A stretch of DNA of 64,000 nt from Pontibacter coccineus (lineage in GTDB: Bacteria > Bacteroidota > Bacteroidia > Cytophagales > Hymenobacteraceae), in contig NZ_JAUOTN010000009.1 in NCBI RefSeq assembly GCF_030546575.1, positions 1-64,000 of the forward strand. The letters are read 5' to 3'. Under the pieces are notes generated by a model. The model searched no databases. It was not told the origin of the DNA and saw only the letters and a list, made by a program, of their open reading frames with translations. Made by a program: the position numbers and the translations under genes. Below are positions 1 to 54,005 of this stretch, one piece after another. How positions within the stretch are numbered: the first letter of the stretch is position 1; every line of letters starts with the position of its first letter.

Positions 1-77
1 GGTATAGGTATAGGTATAGGTATAGGTATAGGTATAGGTATAGGTATAGGTATAGGTATAGGTATAGGTATAGGTAT
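1..77. repeat. Tandem GGTATA hexamer array (12 copies plus a partial)
   Basis: Twelve uninterrupted copies of GGTATA followed by GGTAT open the window, so the array may continue to the left. A short GCGG spacer follows, and an inverted copy (CTATACCTGAT) lies about 30 bases further right. A second array of the same unit and the same length sits at 44905-44976, also followed by GCGG and inverted copies. The unit is the core of the word dispersed over the whole window. Confidence 0.97.
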
Positions 78-137
78 GCGGCTTGGAAAGGAGAGACCGG
101 CGGTCCTATACCTGATAGAGGAAGAGTAGCTGTGACT

Positions 138-3781: not shown

Positions 3782-6700
3782 TTATTGCAGACTAACACGT
3801 AGCTGTACCCCACCTTCCGACACACTGTTGCGGAAGGATGTAGATATTTTAGGGTCGGACACGGTGCGCAGCAGGTAGAACTGTATGTTCACACGCTGGC
3901 TCAGCACGTAGTCCACGGTGGGGCGCAGCTGCAGCTGGCGGGTACCGTTGGTGATCTGGTTCTGGCTTATCTCGTTGCCCTGCTCGTCCTGCGTAATGGC
4001 CCGCTGCACTGTCTGGTTATCGCGCACCGACATGTCCATGCGCACGGTCAGCTCGTTCTCCAGTGTGCGCTGCTCCCCGCCTATCCGGAAAGGTATACGG
4101 AAGTTGGTGGTGGCATACCCAAAGCCGAAGGTATAATCCTTCACGTTGGTTTCGGTTACCTGGGCATTGGTGAGGTTGAGCGACAGGTTGCGCTCTATCC
4201 TATACCCGAGGCGGCCGGTCAGGTTGGTGTTGGTGCGGAAGTTCACACCCAGCAGTTCCAGCCGCTCCTGCACCGTGAGCTGGTTCAGGATGTAGTACGG
4301 AATCAGCTGCCCGAACTCGTTGGTGCGGGTCGGGTAGTCGCCCGGGTCGTTCTCGTAAGCCAGCGAGGTCGTGAAGCTCGTTACGTTATAGGTCGAATTG
4401 TAGGAGTGCGTCAGGTTTACCTGGCTGAACCAGCGCTTGAAGAATGCGAGCTGCGACAGGCCATTGTAGTCGATGCGCCAGTTAGGGATAGGCGCCCGCT
4501 TAACCGGGTTGCCGCCTTTGGCCTTGAAGCCACTCGCATCGCGCCCCTGGTAAGCGTACAGGAACGACTGCAGGAGCACATCCTGCGAGTTCAGGGTATA
4601 GCCTGAGTCGCCGGCCGCCGCATTGGCGTTTGTGAGGCGCTCGCGTATCTCGTAGCGGTTGCGGATAAAGTTGTCGAACGCGGCCGAAGTTCCATTTGCT
4701 GTAGGCTCGAAAATGGTGCCCAGTGCAAAGAAGGATGTGCTGAACGAACCGGTGTTGATCGGGTTCTGGCGCTCGTTTATGGTGCCGATGTTGCCGAAGT
4801 CATCAAACTGCTTGCGGTAGAATACCTCCTCGATCTCGGACATATTGCGGCGGGCATCGAGCTGCAGGTTAAAGTTTCGGAACGGTTCCATGTTGGCCCT
4901 GGCCGTGAACGTCTCGGTATTGATGCCACTGAACGGCGTGTTCAGGTACTGGCTGCTGTCGGTATACCAACCGTTGGTAAAGGCACGGTTATAGAGCTCG
5001 TCCAGATCGTACTGGCGGCCGAGGATGAACGGAAGTCCCGGTGCGTCGAAACCATCGTCGAAGCCAAACATGTGGGTGCGCGGCAGGTAGCCCGGCATCA
5101 TGGTGCCCCGGTTTTGCAGGTAGGTGAAGTTCACCGAGCGGGTCATCATCAGGAAGCGGGCCAGCCCCTTGGCCAGTTTCATCTCAGAGCGCTTCTGTAC
5201 CACGCTGTCGCCCGGTGCAGGTACCGGCGGTCCGCCCTGCGGCTGCGTCGGGCTGTTCACCTCTTTCAGGAACTTCACTTTGTTGTACAGCTTCACCATG
5301 TCAAAACGGCCATTCACGCTGAACTCGGTGGTGTTTTCGGCGGTGTTACCCAGCTGGAAAGCCGCATCCTGGTTCAGGGCAGTGGAACCTGCCGTCCAGA
5401 TGTAGGTAACAGCATAGCGGGTCTCAGCACCCAGCCAGTCGGTAAGCGGGAATTTATCAAACGGCACCTTGTAGTTGGCGGCCACCAGCTGGTTGAAGTG
5501 TGTGTTGCGACCCAGGTTACGCAGGTTGTTCCAGATCACTTTATTCTTGTATCGGAGCGAGTCCACGTCGCGGTTGATGCGGTAGTCCGGTTCGTCTACC
5601 ACGGCACGGTTGGTGGCGGTATAGTCCAGCGACAGGCTCTTACTGATGTCCCACTTCAGGTCGTAGATGCGGTTGAAGAAGAAGTACTTCTGGAACGTTG
5701 GCTCTATACCTCTGGAGGTGATCAGGCCCGAACCCGGATCGCGGCGCTGCAGGAAGGTTTCGTTATACCTGCGGTCGAGGTCGGCTCTGAAGGCAAAACG
5801 GCTCGGCAGCGGCGTGAAGTTCAGGTCCTTGATCAGGCGCATGTACGGTGACTTGAGGCGCTCGCTTTTGGCGAAGAACTCGTAGTTGCGCGGCGTGGTG
5901 GTATAGGTATAGGCCACCGCCCCGGTATAGGTGCGGGTAAAGTCGCGGTCCGTCTCGATGTTGGTGAACAGGCGCTCGGCGTAGGAATACGAGAAGGACA
6001 GGTTCTCTACGTCGTACGGACGCACCTTGGCCTCCGGATTCGTTCGTTCTTTCCGCACGTTTAGCAAACTCACGCTCTTCCGGGTCTCCCGTGTACTCAC
6101 CTCTTGCCTGTACTCTCGTTGGGCCTCGTTCGTCTCATACCTGGTCAGCGATTGATCGAGCGGTACGTCCTTGTCGAGTGGGTCAAACTGCGGGGCGCTG
6201 TTCATGGTGCCGTACTGCACCGACACCGGCACTTTTATACCTAGCTTTTCGGGCAGAAACTTATCAGCCACAATGTTGGCGCTCACATCAAACACAGCCG
6301 TGTTTTCGCGGGCACGCTGGGCGATTTTCTGTTGCAGGGCACCGAAACCGATGGTGGTATAGCTGCCTGTGGCTGTGATGTTGGCAAAGTCGGCCAGTTT
6401 GGTGTTGAGGCGGGCATTGGCGGCCCATCCCGAGTTGTTTCTAAAGTCTGTTACGCGCAGTTCGTTCACCCACACGCAGACCGATTGCGGACGGGCATCC
6501 TCGCCGGGCACAGTCGGGTTGCGCAAACCGATCATCACGCTTTGCACCTCGCTGAAATCCGGGTTACCGACCACCCGAATCATCTTGCCACCCTCGAGCA
6601 TTACCTCGAACGGACGACGGTTGTCCCAGCCTCCTGCGGTTCGGTTTCGCTCCACTTTGGCGTTCACAAAATCCTCTAGGGCAACGTCCACTTCATTCTC

Positions 6701-20340: not shown

Positions 20341-22105
20341 AGAGTTTCTTTTCTTTTATCTTTCTGTTAAGGAAAGCAGAGGCCTCCCCTTTGAGTTTGG
20401 CCTTTTCCCACTGCCTCACCGCCTCGTCTTTTTTGCCCAGCTTGAACAGCACGTCGCCGTAATGCTCCACAATGGTGGCATCCTCCGAAACAGCAATGGC
20501 CTGCTCCAGGTATTTCAGCGCACCCTCGTAATCTTCCATTTTGTACAGCACCCAGGCATAGGTATCCAGGTAAGTGGGGTTGGCTGGGTGTTGCTCTACC
20601 AGACGGCCGGCCATGGCCTTGGCTTTGGGCAGTTGCTCACCTCGCAGCGATAAGAAGTAACTGTAATTGTTGAGTACGTGCTCGTTGTTGGGGTCCTGCG
20701 AAAGCACGGCATCATACGCCTCGTCTGATTTTTTATACTCTTTTATAGAGTTATAGGCATCTCCTAATTGGGCGTTGAACTGTGTCACCAGCTCGGGCTC
20801 GCTTGCCGAAAGGCGCTTGCCATGCTCCAGCGACTTGGCCGCCCGGTCAAAGTTCTTCTCAATGAGATGGCCGGTGCCGTTGTAGAACCAAAACACAGCC
20901 TGGTTCGGGAACAACTCCAGCGCCTGCTCCGAGTGCTTCACCAAATCGCCCGACTCGCCCAGTTCAGCGTCGAGCAGCACGATCTGCTGCCAGATCTTAA
21001 AGTGGGAGTCGTCCAGCTTGACCGCCTTGATGTAGTTGCCCCGTGCCGCCTCTTTTTTGCCGGTGATGGTTTGCAGGTCGCCGGCTACCGCGTAGGCTTT
21101 CGCCTCCTCGGGGTGAGACGTGATCGTGAGGTCGGCCAGTTCAAGGGCTATACCTTCTATGGCAGGGTTTGGCAGCTGGCGGATGAAATCGACCAGGATG
21201 CGCACTTTGGTGTCGATGTCGAGGTCCGTGCTGGCGAACGCGATCTTCACCTGGTTTTCAGACTCCTTCAGGTTGCCTTTCTGGCGGTACAGGTCTGAGA
21301 GCATCAAGTGAGCAAAGGGGTTATTCGGCTCAATGCGCAGGGCGCGGTTGATCGTTTCGATGGCAATGTCCGGCTTTTGGCTGGCATTATACAGCTCGGC
21401 CTGGGCCAGCAGGTAGCGAATCTCAGTAGGGTTGGAGGCGATCAGCTTTTCGCCTTCGGCAAGGGCTTTCCCTATGTTCTTCTGACGCAGGTAGATCTGC
21501 TGGCGGTTCATGGAGAGCTGCTCCAGCGCACCGTATTTTTTCTCAATGCGGTCGTAGGTCTTCAGCGCATCATCGTACTTGGACTGCGCCAGGTATAGCT
21601 CCGCCAGGTTGAACAGGTACTGCTCCTGTTCAGGCACGTTGCGCAGCAGGTCGTTGTAAGCCTGAGCCGCCTCGGTATACTGCTTCTGTTCGGCGTGCAG
21701 CTGCGCAAGCAGCAGGTAATAGTAGGGGTTTTTTGAGTCATTGGCGACGGCGGCCTGCGCAAATGTTACACCCGCTTTCGGGTTTTCCATCAGCATGTAG
21801 GTCTCGGCCAGCTTGTAGTTGAGCGCCGCATTGGTTGGGGTAACGGCGTATGCTTTCTGGAACTGGCTAAGCGCCTGCTTGTAGTCCTCCAGCATAAAGT
21901 ATTTCATGCCCTCCAGAAACAATGCCTCGCTCAGCAGCTTTTCCTGCTCGCTAGGTTCGGGCTGCGGCACAGGTATAGCTACCTGCTCGGTTTCGGCCTT
22001 CTCCTTGCCCTTTCTCTTTTTCTTCTTAGACTGGGCCTGGCTTTCGCCGGTCGCGACCAGTGCAAGGCAGCAAGTGGCGAGCACAATGTTTCTGAATCGG
22101 GTCAT
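20333..22105 (-). CDS. Secreted tetratricopeptide repeat protein
   Basis: A 590-residue protein with a signal peptide (ending near SQAQ), a short Lys/Lys-Arg-rich stretch, then TPR helices over nearly the whole length. Typical repeats are LEGMKYFMLEDYKQALSQFQ, LNYKLAETYMLMENP and LDTYAWVLYKMEDYEGALKY. It is a protein-protein scaffold with no enzymatic motif. It is coupled by overlap to the DUF4292 lipoprotein, and its start lies 12 bases after the nucleotidyltransferase gene. A joint role in outer-membrane or lipoprotein biogenesis is an inference from this pairing. Confidence 0.85.
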   Translation of the reverse strand: MTRFRNIVLATCCLALVATGESQAQSKKKKRKGKEKAETEQVAIPVPQPEPSEQEKLLSEALFLEGMKYFMLEDYKQALSQFQKAYAVTPTNAALNYKLAETYMLMENPKAGVTFAQAAVANDSKNPYYYLLLAQLHAEQKQYTEAAQAYNDLLRNVPEQEQYLFNLAELYLAQSKYDDALKTYDRIEKKYGALEQLSMNRQQIYLRQKNIGKALAEGEKLIASNPTEIRYLLAQAELYNASQKPDIAIETINRALRIEPNNPFAHLMLSDLYRQKGNLKESENQVKIAFASTDLDIDTKVRILVDFIRQLPNPAIEGIALELADLTITSHPEEAKAYAVAGDLQTITGKKEAARGNYIKAVKLDDSHFKIWQQIVLLDAELGESGDLVKHSEQALELFPNQAVFWFYNGTGHLIEKNFDRAAKSLEHGKRLSASEPELVTQFNAQLGDAYNSIKEYKKSDEAYDAVLSQDPNNEHVLNNYSYFLSLRGEQLPKAKAMAGRLVEQHPANPTYLDTYAWVLYKMEDYEGALKYLEQAIAVSEDATIVEHYGDVLFKLGKKDEAVRQWEKAKLKGEASAFLNRKIKEKKLYE

Positions 22106-33565: not shown

Positions 33566-34696
33566 GTGTCAGGTACATTCAAACAAATACGCCGGAAAAT
33601 CTGGCTGATCCTCAATATTCTGGTGGTGCTCTGGCTCCTGCTGGGGGTGTTGAGCATGCGCGTGCCTCCCTACGAATTCTGGCCTGCCGGCTTCATGGCT
33701 TTCTCGCTGCCCGGTGCCCTGGTCCTCAACTTCCTGTTCTTCCTTTACTGGCTGCTGAAGCGCTCCTGGTACGTTTTCTTGCCGCTCGCCGTTATCGGTC
33801 TTGGCTGGAACCAGTATGGTCGTTTGGTGTCCATTTCATGGGACGAGGAACTGCCTGCTGACGCTAAAACGCTGGAAGTGCTCAGCTTCAACGTGCATAT
33901 TTTCAACGCCTACGACAAAATAGTGGAAGGCGTGCCGCGTGTGTCGGAGGAAATGGTGGACTGGGTGGCCACACACCCTGCCGATGTGTTCTGTCTGCAG
34001 GAGTTTTACAGTAGGGTCAATTCGACTGAGTTCAACAATTTCAACCGGATCGGGAAGCGATATAACCGGTATATGTTTGCCTCTACTTACCAGGGCGACC
34101 GCGTGAAAGCCGATGTGGGCGTCGTGATTTTTTCAAAGTACCCGATCATAAGAGGCAATACGATCCACTTTGAAAACACATCGAAGCGCAGCGCCAACCG
34201 GGCCGCCTGGGTAGACATCAATGTGAAAGGAGATACTGTGCGGGTATACGCGGTGCACCTGCAGTCGATGAGTATCAGGGCAGAAGATATCGAGAACACC
34301 TACTCCGCGATAGGCGATGAGGCGAGCTTTAAAAAAGAGAGCCGCAACCTGGCCCGTCGTTTGCGCATGGGTTTCCGGGCAAGGGCCATGCAGGTACAAG
34401 AATTACTCGACCACGTGAAAACCTCACCCTATCCGGTTATCGTGGCGGGCGACTTCAACGATATTCCGTTTAGCTATACCTACAGTCAGTTGGTGAGCGA
34501 GCTGAACAACTCGTTTGAGAAGGCCGGCAATGGAGTGGGGGCCACTTATAACGGTCCTTTGCCATTTCTACGTATTGATAACCAATTCTATAGCGAAGGC
34601 CTGGAGGCGTACGATTTTAAAACGCATTACGAAATGCCGCTTTCCGACCACTTCCCGATCTCGGCGACCTACGTCATCAAACCGAAGGAGGAGTAA
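33566..34696 (+). CDS. Membrane-tethered endonuclease/exonuclease/phosphatase family protein
   Basis: A 376-residue protein starting at GTG. A stop codon lies seven codons upstream and the first membrane helix begins at residue 12, so GTG is the only start that keeps it whole. Three hydrophobic segments (about 12-32, 38-62, 66-85) are followed by an EEP domain with SFNVHIFNAYD, CLQEFYS (catalytic Glu), YAVHLQSM, VAGDFNDIPFSYTY and LSDHFPI (catalytic His). The catalytic domain is probably outside the inner membrane. The substrate (nucleic acid, phosphoinositide or other phosphodiester) cannot be told. It is divergent from the rimP operon. Confidence 0.88.
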   Translation: MSGTFKQIRRKIWLILNILVVLWLLLGVLSMRVPPYEFWPAGFMAFSLPGALVLNFLFFLYWLLKRSWYVFLPLAVIGLGWNQYGRLVSISWDEELPADAKTLEVLSFNVHIFNAYDKIVEGVPRVSEEMVDWVATHPADVFCLQEFYSRVNSTEFNNFNRIGKRYNRYMFASTYQGDRVKADVGVVIFSKYPIIRGNTIHFENTSKRSANRAAWVDINVKGDTVRVYAVHLQSMSIRAEDIENTYSAIGDEASFKKESRNLARRLRMGFRARAMQVQELLDHVKTSPYPVIVAGDFNDIPFSYTYSQLVSELNNSFEKAGNGVGATYNGPLPFLRIDNQFYSEGLEAYDFKTHYEMPLSDHFPISATYVIKPKEE

Positions 34697-37307: not shown

Positions 37308-37324
37308 GGCTATACCTGACCAAC

Positions 37325-44157: not shown

Positions 44158-44865
44158 ATGGAAGGATACGAACTACCTGCTGAGGAGAAAATAATGATTA
44201 CCCACGAGTTGCTGAATCAGGAGTACAAGCCCCTCAGGCTTGATCCGCGCCGCAGCCACATGCACGAGCTGATTTCGACCATGCTCTCGCATCGTACCAA
44301 CCACAAAGACGAAGAGCAAGCTTTTTATACCATGATGGAGCGATTCGGGGACTGGGAAGGCGTAATGAACGCCCCTTTTGATGATCTGGCCGATGCCATC
44401 AGCACGACGCGCTACCCGGGGCAGAAGGTGCCGCAAATACAGGAGACGCTGCGCATCATCAAAGAGGAGCGGGGCGAGTTCAGCATCGATTTTCTGGAGC
44501 AGATGCCGGTGGAGGAAGCCATTGCCGGGCTGACGCGCCTGCCGGGCGTGGGGCTGAAGACGGCAACGCTCGTGCTGCTCTTTAACTTCAAAAAGCCGGT
44601 GCTGCCTGTGGATACACACGTGTTCCGGGTGAGCCAGCGGGTGGGGCTGATCGGAGCCAAGGTCACGGCCAACAAAGCCCACGACATCCTGCTCGACATG
44701 CTGCCCAAAGATGCGGTGGTGCTCTTCAACTTCCACAAGCACCTGCTCAAGCACGGACAGCAGATCTGCACCTGGTCCTACCCCAGGTGCGAGAAGTGTG
44801 TGCTGAACGGAATTTGCAATTACTACAACCAGGTACGGGCGAAGGGAATTGACAAGGCTGCCTGA
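44158..44865 (+). CDS. nth: Endonuclease III (base-excision DNA glycosylase/AP lyase)
   Basis: A 235-residue HhH-GPD glycosylase for oxidised pyrimidines. The hairpin motif LTRLPGVGLKTA carries the catalytic Lys, PVDTHVFRV the catalytic Asp, and the C-terminal CTWSYPRCEKCVLNGIC has the C-x6-C-x2-C-x5-C spacing of the 4Fe-4S cluster. It is about 25 residues longer than the E. coli enzyme at the N-terminus; an internal ATG at residue 12 may be the true start. A GGTATA array follows the gene. Confidence 0.93.
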   Translation: MEGYELPAEEKIMITHELLNQEYKPLRLDPRRSHMHELISTMLSHRTNHKDEEQAFYTMMERFGDWEGVMNAPFDDLADAISTTRYPGQKVPQIQETLRIIKEERGEFSIDFLEQMPVEEAIAGLTRLPGVGLKTATLVLLFNFKKPVLPVDTHVFRVSQRVGLIGAKVTANKAHDILLDMLPKDAVVLFNFHKHLLKHGQQICTWSYPRCEKCVLNGICNYYNQVRAKGIDKAA

Positions 44866-44904: not shown

Positions 44905-44994
44905 GGTATAGGTATAGGTATAGGTATAGGTATAGGTATAGGTATAGGTATAGGTATAGGTATAGGTATAGGTATAGCGGCTATACCTATACCT
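44905..44994. repeat. Tandem GGTATA array (12 copies) ending in inverted copies
   Basis: Twelve exact GGTATA copies (44905-44976), then GCGG and two inverted copies (44983-44994). The last two direct copies and the inverted ones can fold as GGTATAGGTATAG-CGG-CTATACCTATACC with 13 perfect pairs (44965-44994). It lies between the convergent nth and serine hydrolase genes, where a terminator is expected. Confidence 0.95.
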
Positions 44995-45005
44995 GATCAG
45001 ACGCT

Positions 45006-46301
45006 TCAGTTATCTACCTCGCTCAGCACAGGCCGGGTATCCTGTTTGTCGCGTTTTTCATACTGTACCTGAAACGCTGACAGGTTGGGTTTGAACTTGC
45101 GTTCTCTCTTCAACTCGTGTTGGTAAATGATCTGCCCCAAGTGGTAGAGGAAAGGGTAGCCGAGCGTGTCGTAATCATATTTGCCATCGTTCAGCACGTC
45201 GTCGCTGTTCACATATACCGTGGCCGTGAGCATGTACTCCACCTGGTTTTCAAAATCCGCCACATACGAGACATCTGTCAGGAAACCATAAGACCAACCC
45301 ACTTTGTTGAACACCCGCACATGCTCGGGCATGCGGTGTGTGTTATCCCGGAAGAAGAACTTCACATAGCTGTCATAAAATAGGGTGGTATCGTACTTGG
45401 GGTAAGGCGTTTCGGAAGGGTACTGCGACAGGTAGCGGTACAGGAAATCGTAATCGTCTTCAGTGAGGTTGAAGCGTTGCTTTTTGGGTACGGAGGCCGG
45501 AAACATCACCGACTGCAGGAGTTGCTGCAGATCCTCCAGCGGGAGCTTGTTGTGCAATGTAAAGTCAAACGGTGCATGTACCAGGGTGTCGCGGCTGTCG
45601 TAATGCGCTTTGCCGAGTTTGATAACCTCGCTGAAGTCAATGGAATCAGTGTTGTAGAGCGCCGGCTGAGAATACCGGGTGCTGCCATCTTCATTTAAAA
45701 AGCGAACGGGGTTTGAGTGGCGGTTTTGCTCTGTCGTGAAGCCCATGAACTGGCGTACAATGCGGGAGTCTTTGTAGCCTTTCCGGTGGAGGTTCCGGTT
45801 AACTTCCTGCTGGCCTACAAACTGGTACAAACGGTTGTAAGGGTCGTTTTCGCTGATCAGCAGGGCCCGTTTGATAAAATGCGCGATGGAGGGCAGGCCA
45901 GTGGCCGAAGAAGCGTCTGTGTAAAGCGATGTCTGCCCCACCTGGCTGCTGTCAAACACAACAGGCGTGTGCTTGTCTATACCTTTCTTTCGGAGCGTGT
46001 TGAGCTTCTCCAGCGCCATGAAAGCCAGTGGCAGCTTAACCGTAGAGGCCGGGTTGAAGTAAAGATTGGGGTCGTGGTTGAAATAGTGGTTTTTGAAAGA
46101 AGGCTTGTTGTGCTTATCGCGGTTGATCTCGGTATAGATGATCTGCACGCGGTATTTTTCCGGGTCGCGGAGCAGCACGTTTACACTGTCGTTGGCTGCT
46201 TTTGTCAAAAGCTCCCTCAGAAAATCATCAGTTCTTTTTTGAGCCATAGAAGATTGATAGATGCAGAGCATCAAAGCTAAAAGAAGTAAACGTTTGGTCA
46301 T
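45006..46301 (-). CDS. Secreted serine hydrolase, class A beta-lactamase-like
   Basis: A 431-residue protein with a signal peptide (MTKRLLLLALMLCIYQ, cleavage near SMAQ). The acyl-enzyme motif is FNPASTVKLP (Ser86, Lys89), followed by ISENDPYNRLY as a probable second motif. The third motif, usually KTG, appears as FNKVGWSYGF. This is the fold of class A beta-lactamases and related penicillin-recognising enzymes, but the changed third motif and greater length argue against a classical beta-lactamase. A DD-peptidase or esterase role is possible. A truncated copy of its 5' end lies near 47152-47216. Confidence 0.82.
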   Translation of the reverse strand: MTKRLLLLALMLCIYQSSMAQKRTDDFLRELLTKAANDSVNVLLRDPEKYRVQIIYTEINRDKHNKPSFKNHYFNHDPNLYFNPASTVKLPLAFMALEKLNTLRKKGIDKHTPVVFDSSQVGQTSLYTDASSATGLPSIAHFIKRALLISENDPYNRLYQFVGQQEVNRNLHRKGYKDSRIVRQFMGFTTEQNRHSNPVRFLNEDGSTRYSQPALYNTDSIDFSEVIKLGKAHYDSRDTLVHAPFDFTLHNKLPLEDLQQLLQSVMFPASVPKKQRFNLTEDDYDFLYRYLSQYPSETPYPKYDTTLFYDSYVKFFFRDNTHRMPEHVRVFNKVGWSYGFLTDVSYVADFENQVEYMLTATVYVNSDDVLNDGKYDYDTLGYPFLYHLGQIIYQHELKRERKFKPNLSAFQVQYEKRDKQDTRPVLSEVDN

Positions 46302-53027: not shown

Positions 53028-54005
53028 ATGCGCTTAAGATCGAAACCTGTGCTTTGCAACTACTACGTTACCTACCGTTGTAACGCAAAGTGCTCGTTTT
53101 GCGACATCTGGGAGAAGCCTTCGCCTTACATTACCCTGGAGGATGTGGCCCAGAACCTGCGCGACCTGAAAAAGCTGGGCGTGCAGGTGATCGATTTCAC
53201 GGGAGGGGAGCCCCTCTTACACCGCCAGATCGACCAGATGTTGGGCATGGCGCACGACATGGGTTTCATCACCACCCTCACTACCAACGGAATGCTCTAC
53301 CCCAAACTGGCCGAACGGCTGAAGGGTAAAGTGGATATGCTGCATTTTTCGCTGGACTCAGCCCACAAAGAAGAGCACGATACCGGCCGGGGCGTGGCCT
53401 GCTATGATTTCGTGATGGAGTCGATACAGGTGGCAAAGCAGCTGGGCGAACGACCGGATATCCTGTTCACGGCGTTCCGTCACAATCTAGACCAACTGGA
53501 GGAGGTATACCGCACCATCACCCAGCCCAACAAGCTGATGCTGATTATCAACCCGGCCTTTGAATACAACGAGGTCGCGGTAGGGGAGCAGCTTACGGAA
53601 GAGGAACTGAACTACCTGACGGCCTTCGGAAAGCGCAAAGGCGTATACCTGAACGAGGGCTTTGTGCAGCTGCGCCGCGACGGGGGCAACAAGGTGGCGG
53701 ACCCGGTTTGCAAAGCCGCCAGCACCACACTGGTCATCTCCCCGGAAAACGAGTTGGTGCTGCCCTGCTACCACCTGGGCACCAAGAGCTTCCCGATAGA
53801 AGGCAAATTGGACGCGCTATACCTGAGTGAGGAGGTGGAGGAACTGAAGCAACTGGAGGGACGGTTACCGGCCTGCGAAGGCTGCACCATCAACTGCTAC
53901 ATGCAACCCAGCTTCGCCGTTGAAATAAACAAATACTTCTGGAAAGCCCTGCCCAGCACGCTGAAGTATAACCTGAGCAAAGGGACGTGGAAGCGGTTGA
54001 TTTGA
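53028..54005 (+). CDS. Radical SAM enzyme with Cys-rich C-terminal (SPASM-like) region
   Basis: A 325-residue protein with the 4Fe-4S/SAM motif C-x3-C-x2-C at Cys18, 22 and 25 (YRCNAKCSFCDIW), a following FTGGEPL and the HFSLDSAHKEEH segment. The C-terminal third has added Cys: one in DPVCKAA, one in VLPCYH and three in PACEGCTINCY, which is the pattern of an auxiliary-cluster SPASM-like domain. Such enzymes often modify peptides or act as maturases, but no precursor peptide was recognised here. The gene is single and framed by mirrored repeat tracts. The substrate is unknown. Confidence 0.87.
   Translation: MRLRSKPVLCNYYVTYRCNAKCSFCDIWEKPSPYITLEDVAQNLRDLKKLGVQVIDFTGGEPLLHRQIDQMLGMAHDMGFITTLTTNGMLYPKLAERLKGKVDMLHFSLDSAHKEEHDTGRGVACYDFVMESIQVAKQLGERPDILFTAFRHNLDQLEEVYRTITQPNKLMLIINPAFEYNEVAVGEQLTEEELNYLTAFGKRKGVYLNEGFVQLRRDGGNKVADPVCKAASTTLVISPENELVLPCYHLGTKSFPIEGKLDALYLSEEVEELKQLEGRLPACEGCTINCYMQPSFAVEINKYFWKALPSTLKYNLSKGTWKRLI

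Follow-up and report, generated by a model that had tools for sequence, protein, structure and literature searches.

The genome of Pontibacter coccineus contains a dispersed 8-base word, AGGTATAG, in 4,844 copies, against 96 copies of the reversed-word control. We consider the word, with a probability of roughly 55% and judging from sequence, to be a putative DUS-like self-marking of DNA in Pontibacter, a genus in which no type IV pilus motor could be recognised. This reading is supported by the abundance and specificity of the word, dialects of spelling that match the phylogeny, conserved sites, swaps of one spelling for another in place, depletion in conjugative regions and ComEC in 50 of 50 genomes. 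Against it stand the lack of a full-length pilus motor match, a DUF5689 protein that does not track the word, the lack of an excess of inverted pairs, clumped spacing and the lack of a swap in one dialect-C genome (G054). The window, which is the whole analysed stretch of 64,000 nucleotides, had been noted in a first-pass annotation for two tandem arrays of GGTATA; the dispersed word was underrated there, and it is the main finding.

With the arrays masked, 72 sites of AGGTATAG were found in the window against 2.1 expected, and a total of 464 kb contained 478 where 39 would be expected, overall about one site per kb. Most one-base variants were near expectation in the 464 kb; the raised ones have A or C at the last position, G at the seventh or G at the first. 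A clear flank preference was seen only for C or A at position -1 and for C or G directly behind the word, and the commonest 10-base form is CAGGTATAGC. Classed by simple ORF calls, the density was 0.81 per kb in genes, 2.34 per kb in intergenic regions and 3.2 per kb between convergent genes. Within genes, 128 sites were in sense and 191 in antisense orientation, and 106 of the 128 sense sites stood in the frame reading Gly-Ile. Even spacing is a feature of USS; it was not seen for AGGTATAG, the spacing of which was more clumped than random.

The spelling of the word differs within the genus. In 39 of 50 Pontibacter genomes the commonest of three 8-mers was present at 2,246-8,208 copies. By our own cut on whole-genome counts, the genomes were divided into dialect A (AGGTATAG, 12 genomes), dialect B (AAGTATAA, 19 genomes), dialect C (AACTATAG, five genomes), three mixed genomes and 11 weak ones; the words other than A were first spotted in 40 genomes, from each of which 11-20 kb surrounding nth had been sampled. 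AGGTATAG is present at 2,823-5,222 copies in the 12 genomes and at 173-833 in the remaining 38. The B word reaches 2,246-7,030 copies in its 19 genomes and 3,911-6,128 in the three mixed ones, and the C word 6,288-8,208 copies in its five genomes and 907-2,617 in the mixed ones. The weak genomes contain 204-1,201 copies of AAGTATAA, which is 1.3 to 5 times the control; G007, with 1,201 copies against a control of 252, was placed among them. In comparison with expectation, 626 copies of the B word were found against 64, and 208 of the C word against 21. All three words have the frame A-R-S-TATA-R in common. Dialect C is half-palindromic, and ACTATAGT is raised in it too. Elsewhere in the family, across five further genera with 154 genomes, AAGTATAA has only 16-662 copies, and in 20-kb samples from other genera the A, B or C word was present 0-4 times (18 of 20 strips; those of G074 and G214 were too short).

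In a tree of nine concatenated proteins, covering 41 of the 50 genomes, dialect A formed one clade of 12 genomes with support of 1.00, and dialect C together with the mixed genomes G045 and G061 formed another. Dialect B was paraphyletic and is therefore probably ancestral, and the weak-word genomes stood in several places on the tree, which suggests losses of the word. The dialect label changes eight times on this tree, against 18 or more times in 1,000 shuffles, so the spelling follows the phylogeny. One dialect-B genome showed a separate peculiarity: in G020:C1:1944098-1946633 AGGTATAG recurs about every 66 bp in a CRISPR-repeat-like manner, over at least these coordinates.

The conjugative-element marker TraM (PF12508) was detected in 24 of the 50 genomes, 17 of them word-bearing. 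Twenty of the 24 TraM places listed in these 17 genomes were compared with genome means (omitting G012:C8, G012:C12, the second G040:C6 place and G051:C13), in strips of 12-20 kb, which include some flanking DNA. These 20 strips contained 51 local words against 348 expected, a sevenfold depletion. The reversed word was not depleted in them (23 against 9.4 expected), and strips around nth, from 11 of these genomes, contained 229 local words against 183 expected. The word flags recently acquired DNA in these genomes; a depletion of this kind would be expected of any genomic signature that is acquired slowly.

The available part of one source names only the Neisseriaceae and Pasteurellaceae as families with such DNA discrimination (PMC12616744). 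The DUS of Neisseriaceae is described with eight dialects and about 940 to 5,900 copies per genome, and with inverted pairs at terminators (PMC3630211); its distribution is atypical in mobile elements (PMC7371117). Pontibacter resembles this system, as far as these accounts describe it, in having a single short word repeated thousands of times, a phylogenetic pattern of dialects, genomes of mixed dialect, sites both within and between genes and an atypical distribution in mobile elements (PMC3630211, PMC7371117). It differs in the word and the phylum, in its tandem arrays, in the lack of a full-length pilus motor match and of a general excess of inverted pairs, and in that its uptake is a prediction. 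The USS of Pasteurellaceae has a density of about 1 per kb; the Pontibacter word is similar in density and in the sharp enrichment of a single word, and unlike it in being an 8-base core with little flanking preference, with no known receptor and in Bacteroidota.

The density of HIP1 in cyanobacteria is comparable to that of the word, and a HIP-like origin has to be weighed, in which a DNA methyltransferase together with a repair bias would make and maintain the word, as proposed for HIP1. HIP1 is likewise a high-frequency octamer with lineage-specific replacement words (PMC4390886), and the depletion in recent arrivals fits such an origin too. However, HIP sequences are given in the available text of that source as GC-rich palindromes with matching methyltransferases (PMC4390886), and AGGTATAG and AAGTATAA are neither GC-rich nor palindromic; we regard this origin as unlikely.

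The arrays reported in the first-pass annotation lie at two places in the window, and the one at 44905-44976 was confirmed directly, with 12 exact units closed by an inverted copy. The features of this locus are as follows.

44158-44865, plus strand: HhH-GPD (endonuclease III-like; nth) gene upstream of the array (PF00730, E 1.1e-12).
44905-44976, plus strand: tandem array of 12 exact GGTATA units, with six units in G017 and two in G039 and G010 at the homologous place.
44981-44997, minus strand: inverted copy of two overlapping words, CTATACCTATACCTGAT, capable of base-pairing with the end of the array over the intervening GCGG (44977-44980).
45006-46301, minus strand: Beta-lactamase2-family gene downstream of the array (PF13354, E 2e-14).

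Through the flanking A (44904) and G (44977) the array consists of 12 overlapping AGGTATAG words. Chance is excluded for the arrays, since GGTATAGGTATA has 26 matches in the window against 0.01 expected in shuffles. The array is located between convergent genes, and the RNA fold of 44953-45000, which comprises the array end with the inverted copy, has -23.8 kcal/mol (z -4.7). A terminator was considered for this foldable inverted pair and rejected: no T-run follows the inverted copy, and inverted pairs are not in excess. At distances of 8-60 bp, 18 pairs were on opposite strands and 30 on the same strand in the source genome, 15 and 23 in the dialect-B strips and 5 and 28 in the dialect-C strips, and the array with its inverted copy is a single example of such a pair.

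These surroundings bear on the possibility that the word is bound by an abundant protein of regulatory or chromosome-organising function, the arrays forming high-affinity clusters. The intergenic enrichment, highest between convergent genes at 3.2 per kb, agrees with it, as do the mostly intergenic position of the arrays and the site after nth, which has an inverted partner in G000 (the source genome), G039 and G010 and can fold. It is nevertheless quite unlikely, for about 0.8 sites per kb lie inside genes on both strands, three spellings exist in one genus, and most arrays have no common flanks.

The second array lies at the beginning of the window, where two features were identified.

1-77, plus strand: the other array, truncated where contig C12 begins, with its opposite side most likely at C3:1-74.
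106-116, minus strand: inverted single word after this array.

Positions 1-77 read as 12 GGTATA units and GGTAT, followed by GCGG at 78-81 and by the inverted word. The window opens with the first base of contig C12, so this array is cut. The first 74 bases of contig C3 likewise consist of this array, in opposite orientation, and in the relatives G017 and G015 the flanks of C3 and C12 adjoin across one five-unit array; 1-77 and C3:1-74 are therefore most likely the two ends of one array that was too long for the assembly. The equal copy number that had been remarked for the two arrays is accordingly meaningless, the true length of this one being at least 77 bases. Of the common right side that had also been remarked, GCGG does follow both arrays, but nothing marks it as special: at 54% of 477 sites the base after the word is C. 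An (AGTATA)n array was also observed at a contig start in G013 (C3:6-95), so such arrays may break other Pontibacter assemblies.

A search of the source genome for further arrays, as had been proposed, revealed 19 runs of at least three GGTATA units, ranging in length from 3 to 13 units; with the two contig ends counted as a single array, there are 18 loci. Of the 17 runs that lie outside the window, three overlap a long ORF, in two cases close to its 5′ end. By eye, the flanks of the arrays are mostly unrelated. Four arrays (L014, L015, L022 and L025) have a similar left flank by eye, three of them also sharing part of the right flank, and these shared flanks resemble a longer intergenic repeat. 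At the locus after nth we counted 12 units in G000, six in G017, two in G039 and two in G010, a comparison that omits eight other dialect-A relatives with the downstream neighbour absent from the strip; at the other locus there are at least 12 units in G000, five in G017 and five in G015. The suggested variation in unit number is hence real between species, and it is at this level, rather than between strains, that it is shown.

In a 39-genome search (GGTATA)4 was present in nine of nine dialect-A genomes and in none of 16 other Pontibacter, and (AGTATA)4 was present in 14 of the 50 Pontibacter genomes, comprising 13 of dialect B and one mixed, and none of A, C or the weak group. Within Pontibacter, arrays were found only where the dispersed word has the matching spelling. 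Together with the differing unit counts at both loci, this supports the earlier suggestion of slippage on existing sites: by this account the arrays arose through slippage at an 8-base word that is hyperabundant and overlaps itself, and we infer that they have no separate function themselves. As a hallmark of Pontibacter, (GGTATA)4 was rejected: among the matches listed, 46 of 80 were in Pontibacter and 34 were scattered (e.g. Paenibacillus, Colwellia and Sphingomonas), so the microsatellite alone proves nothing.

The dispersed sites are conserved between close relatives beyond other 8-mers of the same coding class. Forty of 59 aligned sites were identical in G017 (28.1 expected from such 8-mers), and 36 of 49 in G015 (15.6 expected). 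In four dialect-B genomes the A word was kept at 3 of 91 aligned sites against 13.2 expected, and AAGTATAA stood at 13 of these 91 A sites; for other words of equal distance the count was 13 of 885. The 13 swaps represent five distinct sites pooled over four related genomes, so the Fisher p of 7e-8 overstates their strength. At 26 aligned sites of the dialect-C genome G054 no swap was found. The five sites are the following.

5905-5912, plus strand: dispersed site, with AAGTATAA at the aligned position in G006, G013 and G043.
21591-21598, plus strand: dispersed site, with AAGTATAA at the aligned position in G006, G013 and G014.
34474-34481, minus strand: dispersed site, with AAGTATAA in G006 and G014 and AAGTATAG in G013 and G043.
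37310-37317, minus strand: dispersed site, with AAGTATAA at the aligned position in G006 and G014.
53817-53824, minus strand: dispersed AGGTATAG site, with AAGTATAA at the aligned position in dialect-B G013, G014 and G043, and also in G044, G008 and G019.

A purely mutational or mobile origin, in which the word would be inserted, copied or favoured by mutation with no selected use, gains something from the tandem arrays, as these show slippage acting on the word. But where a close relative lacks a site, it mostly differs by ungapped point changes (gapped at 2 of 61 aligned sites in G017 and 1 of 50 in G015), which indicates that the sites were not inserted, and with the conservation above other 8-mers and the sharply defined spelling this origin becomes very unlikely.

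A Chi-like recombination hot spot read by RecBCD/AddAB is disfavoured and scarcely probable, since the word, although it is like Chi a non-palindromic, over-represented and lineage-specific octamer scarce in mobile DNA and leans weakly to the leading strand in strips of clear GC skew (210 to 163, p 0.017), is enriched between genes and shows, by the neighbour test, none of the polarity that published calls require in the available text (PMC8022716), neighbouring sites sharing a strand in 199 of 384 cases in the source genome (p 0.51), 124 of 253 in 14 dialect-B strips and 41 of 78 in four dialect-C strips.

For the preferred reading, DUS-like self-marking, the transformation machinery was searched in the 50 genomes. 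A comEC match was present in all of them, interrupted by a stop in the word-bearing genomes G009 (C76:160505-161305) and G022 (C1:2771217-2771876), which is either sequencing error or recent loss. ComEC also occurs in E. coli and is not specific to competent species, which makes its presence weak evidence for competence. Uptake in the known DUS/USS systems makes use of pilus proteins, type IV pilus machinery with a minor-pilin receptor being a mark of this class. The pilus search covered the motor ATPase PF00437 (type IV pilus/type II secretion) alone and gave no full-length match in the 50 genomes; partial matches of 38-66 of 370 positions occurred in all 50, three of them reaching the cut-off of 24.9 bits or slightly exceeding it (25.0-25.9 bits). 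Membership in the known DUS/USS systems is not established, because uptake is a prediction here and a full-length pilus motor was not found.

Transformation in Riemerella, also in Bacteroidota, is described as needing ComEC, DprA, ComF, RecA and four unusual proteins, one of which carries DUF5689 (PMC8459023), and R. columbina prefers its own DNA (PMC7965970). The likeness to Pontibacter would lie in ComEC-dependent competence with unusual machinery and in that preference; the difference is that Riemerella has no established uptake word and that its DUF5689 protein does not track the Pontibacter word. DUF5689, the one Bacteroidota candidate surface protein tried as receptor, was rejected: it was present in 22 of the 50 genomes, including the weak-word G046, G053, G058, G002 and G007, and absent from strong-word genomes, e.g. 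G013, G050 and G016. No receptor for the word was found with this candidate.

In the proposed mechanism, a putative surface or periplasmic DNA-binding protein of ComEC-dependent transformation would prefer word-bearing DNA, and cells would recombine in DNA of their own kind. The uptake bias would keep and spread the word over time, to about one site per kb, and the differing spellings A, B and C would limit exchange between lineages. Competence, preferential uptake and the receptor are thus predicted features of Pontibacter. Among the papers listed from the literature searched, mostly open-access, we found no report of an uptake word for Pontibacter or its family, which is not proof of absence, and no uptake or transformation data for Pontibacter; the matches listed for AGGTATAG in published texts were, by title, unrelated to bacterial genome words.

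If the DUS-like reading is true, Pontibacter would be a third, unrelated case of self-marking, in Bacteroidota, which would mean that such marking arose repeatedly and can do without type IV pili. Because three spellings, mixtures and what look like losses occur within one genus, the receptor could then be sought by co-variation, and it would be directly testable whether uptake bias alone creates such words. More tentatively, and with slightly less than even confidence, we might speculate that this is an independently evolved, dialect-bearing recognition of self-DNA for transformation without a type IV pilus motor, and that scattered species in the family's other genera could share the invention, marked there by the unrelated words ACCTAG[CG][GT].

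ACCTAG[CG][GT] itself is a second, unrelated hyperabundant word family, with 3,373-10,408 copies (two-strand count, the palindromic form being counted twice). It is hyperabundant in 5 of 120 genomes of genus g18 (G086, G092, G144, G160 and G179), the others of g18 having 26-637 copies, and in 3 of 8 genomes of g20 (G213, G214 and G217); it was seen in strips L281 and L292, and in L292 the flanks of 16 sites look unrelated. In another genus (g17), the 20-kb strip L278 of genome G073 contains the palindrome CGCATGCG at six places, with a two-strand count of 12 against 0.4 expected, and this is possibly a HIP-like word.
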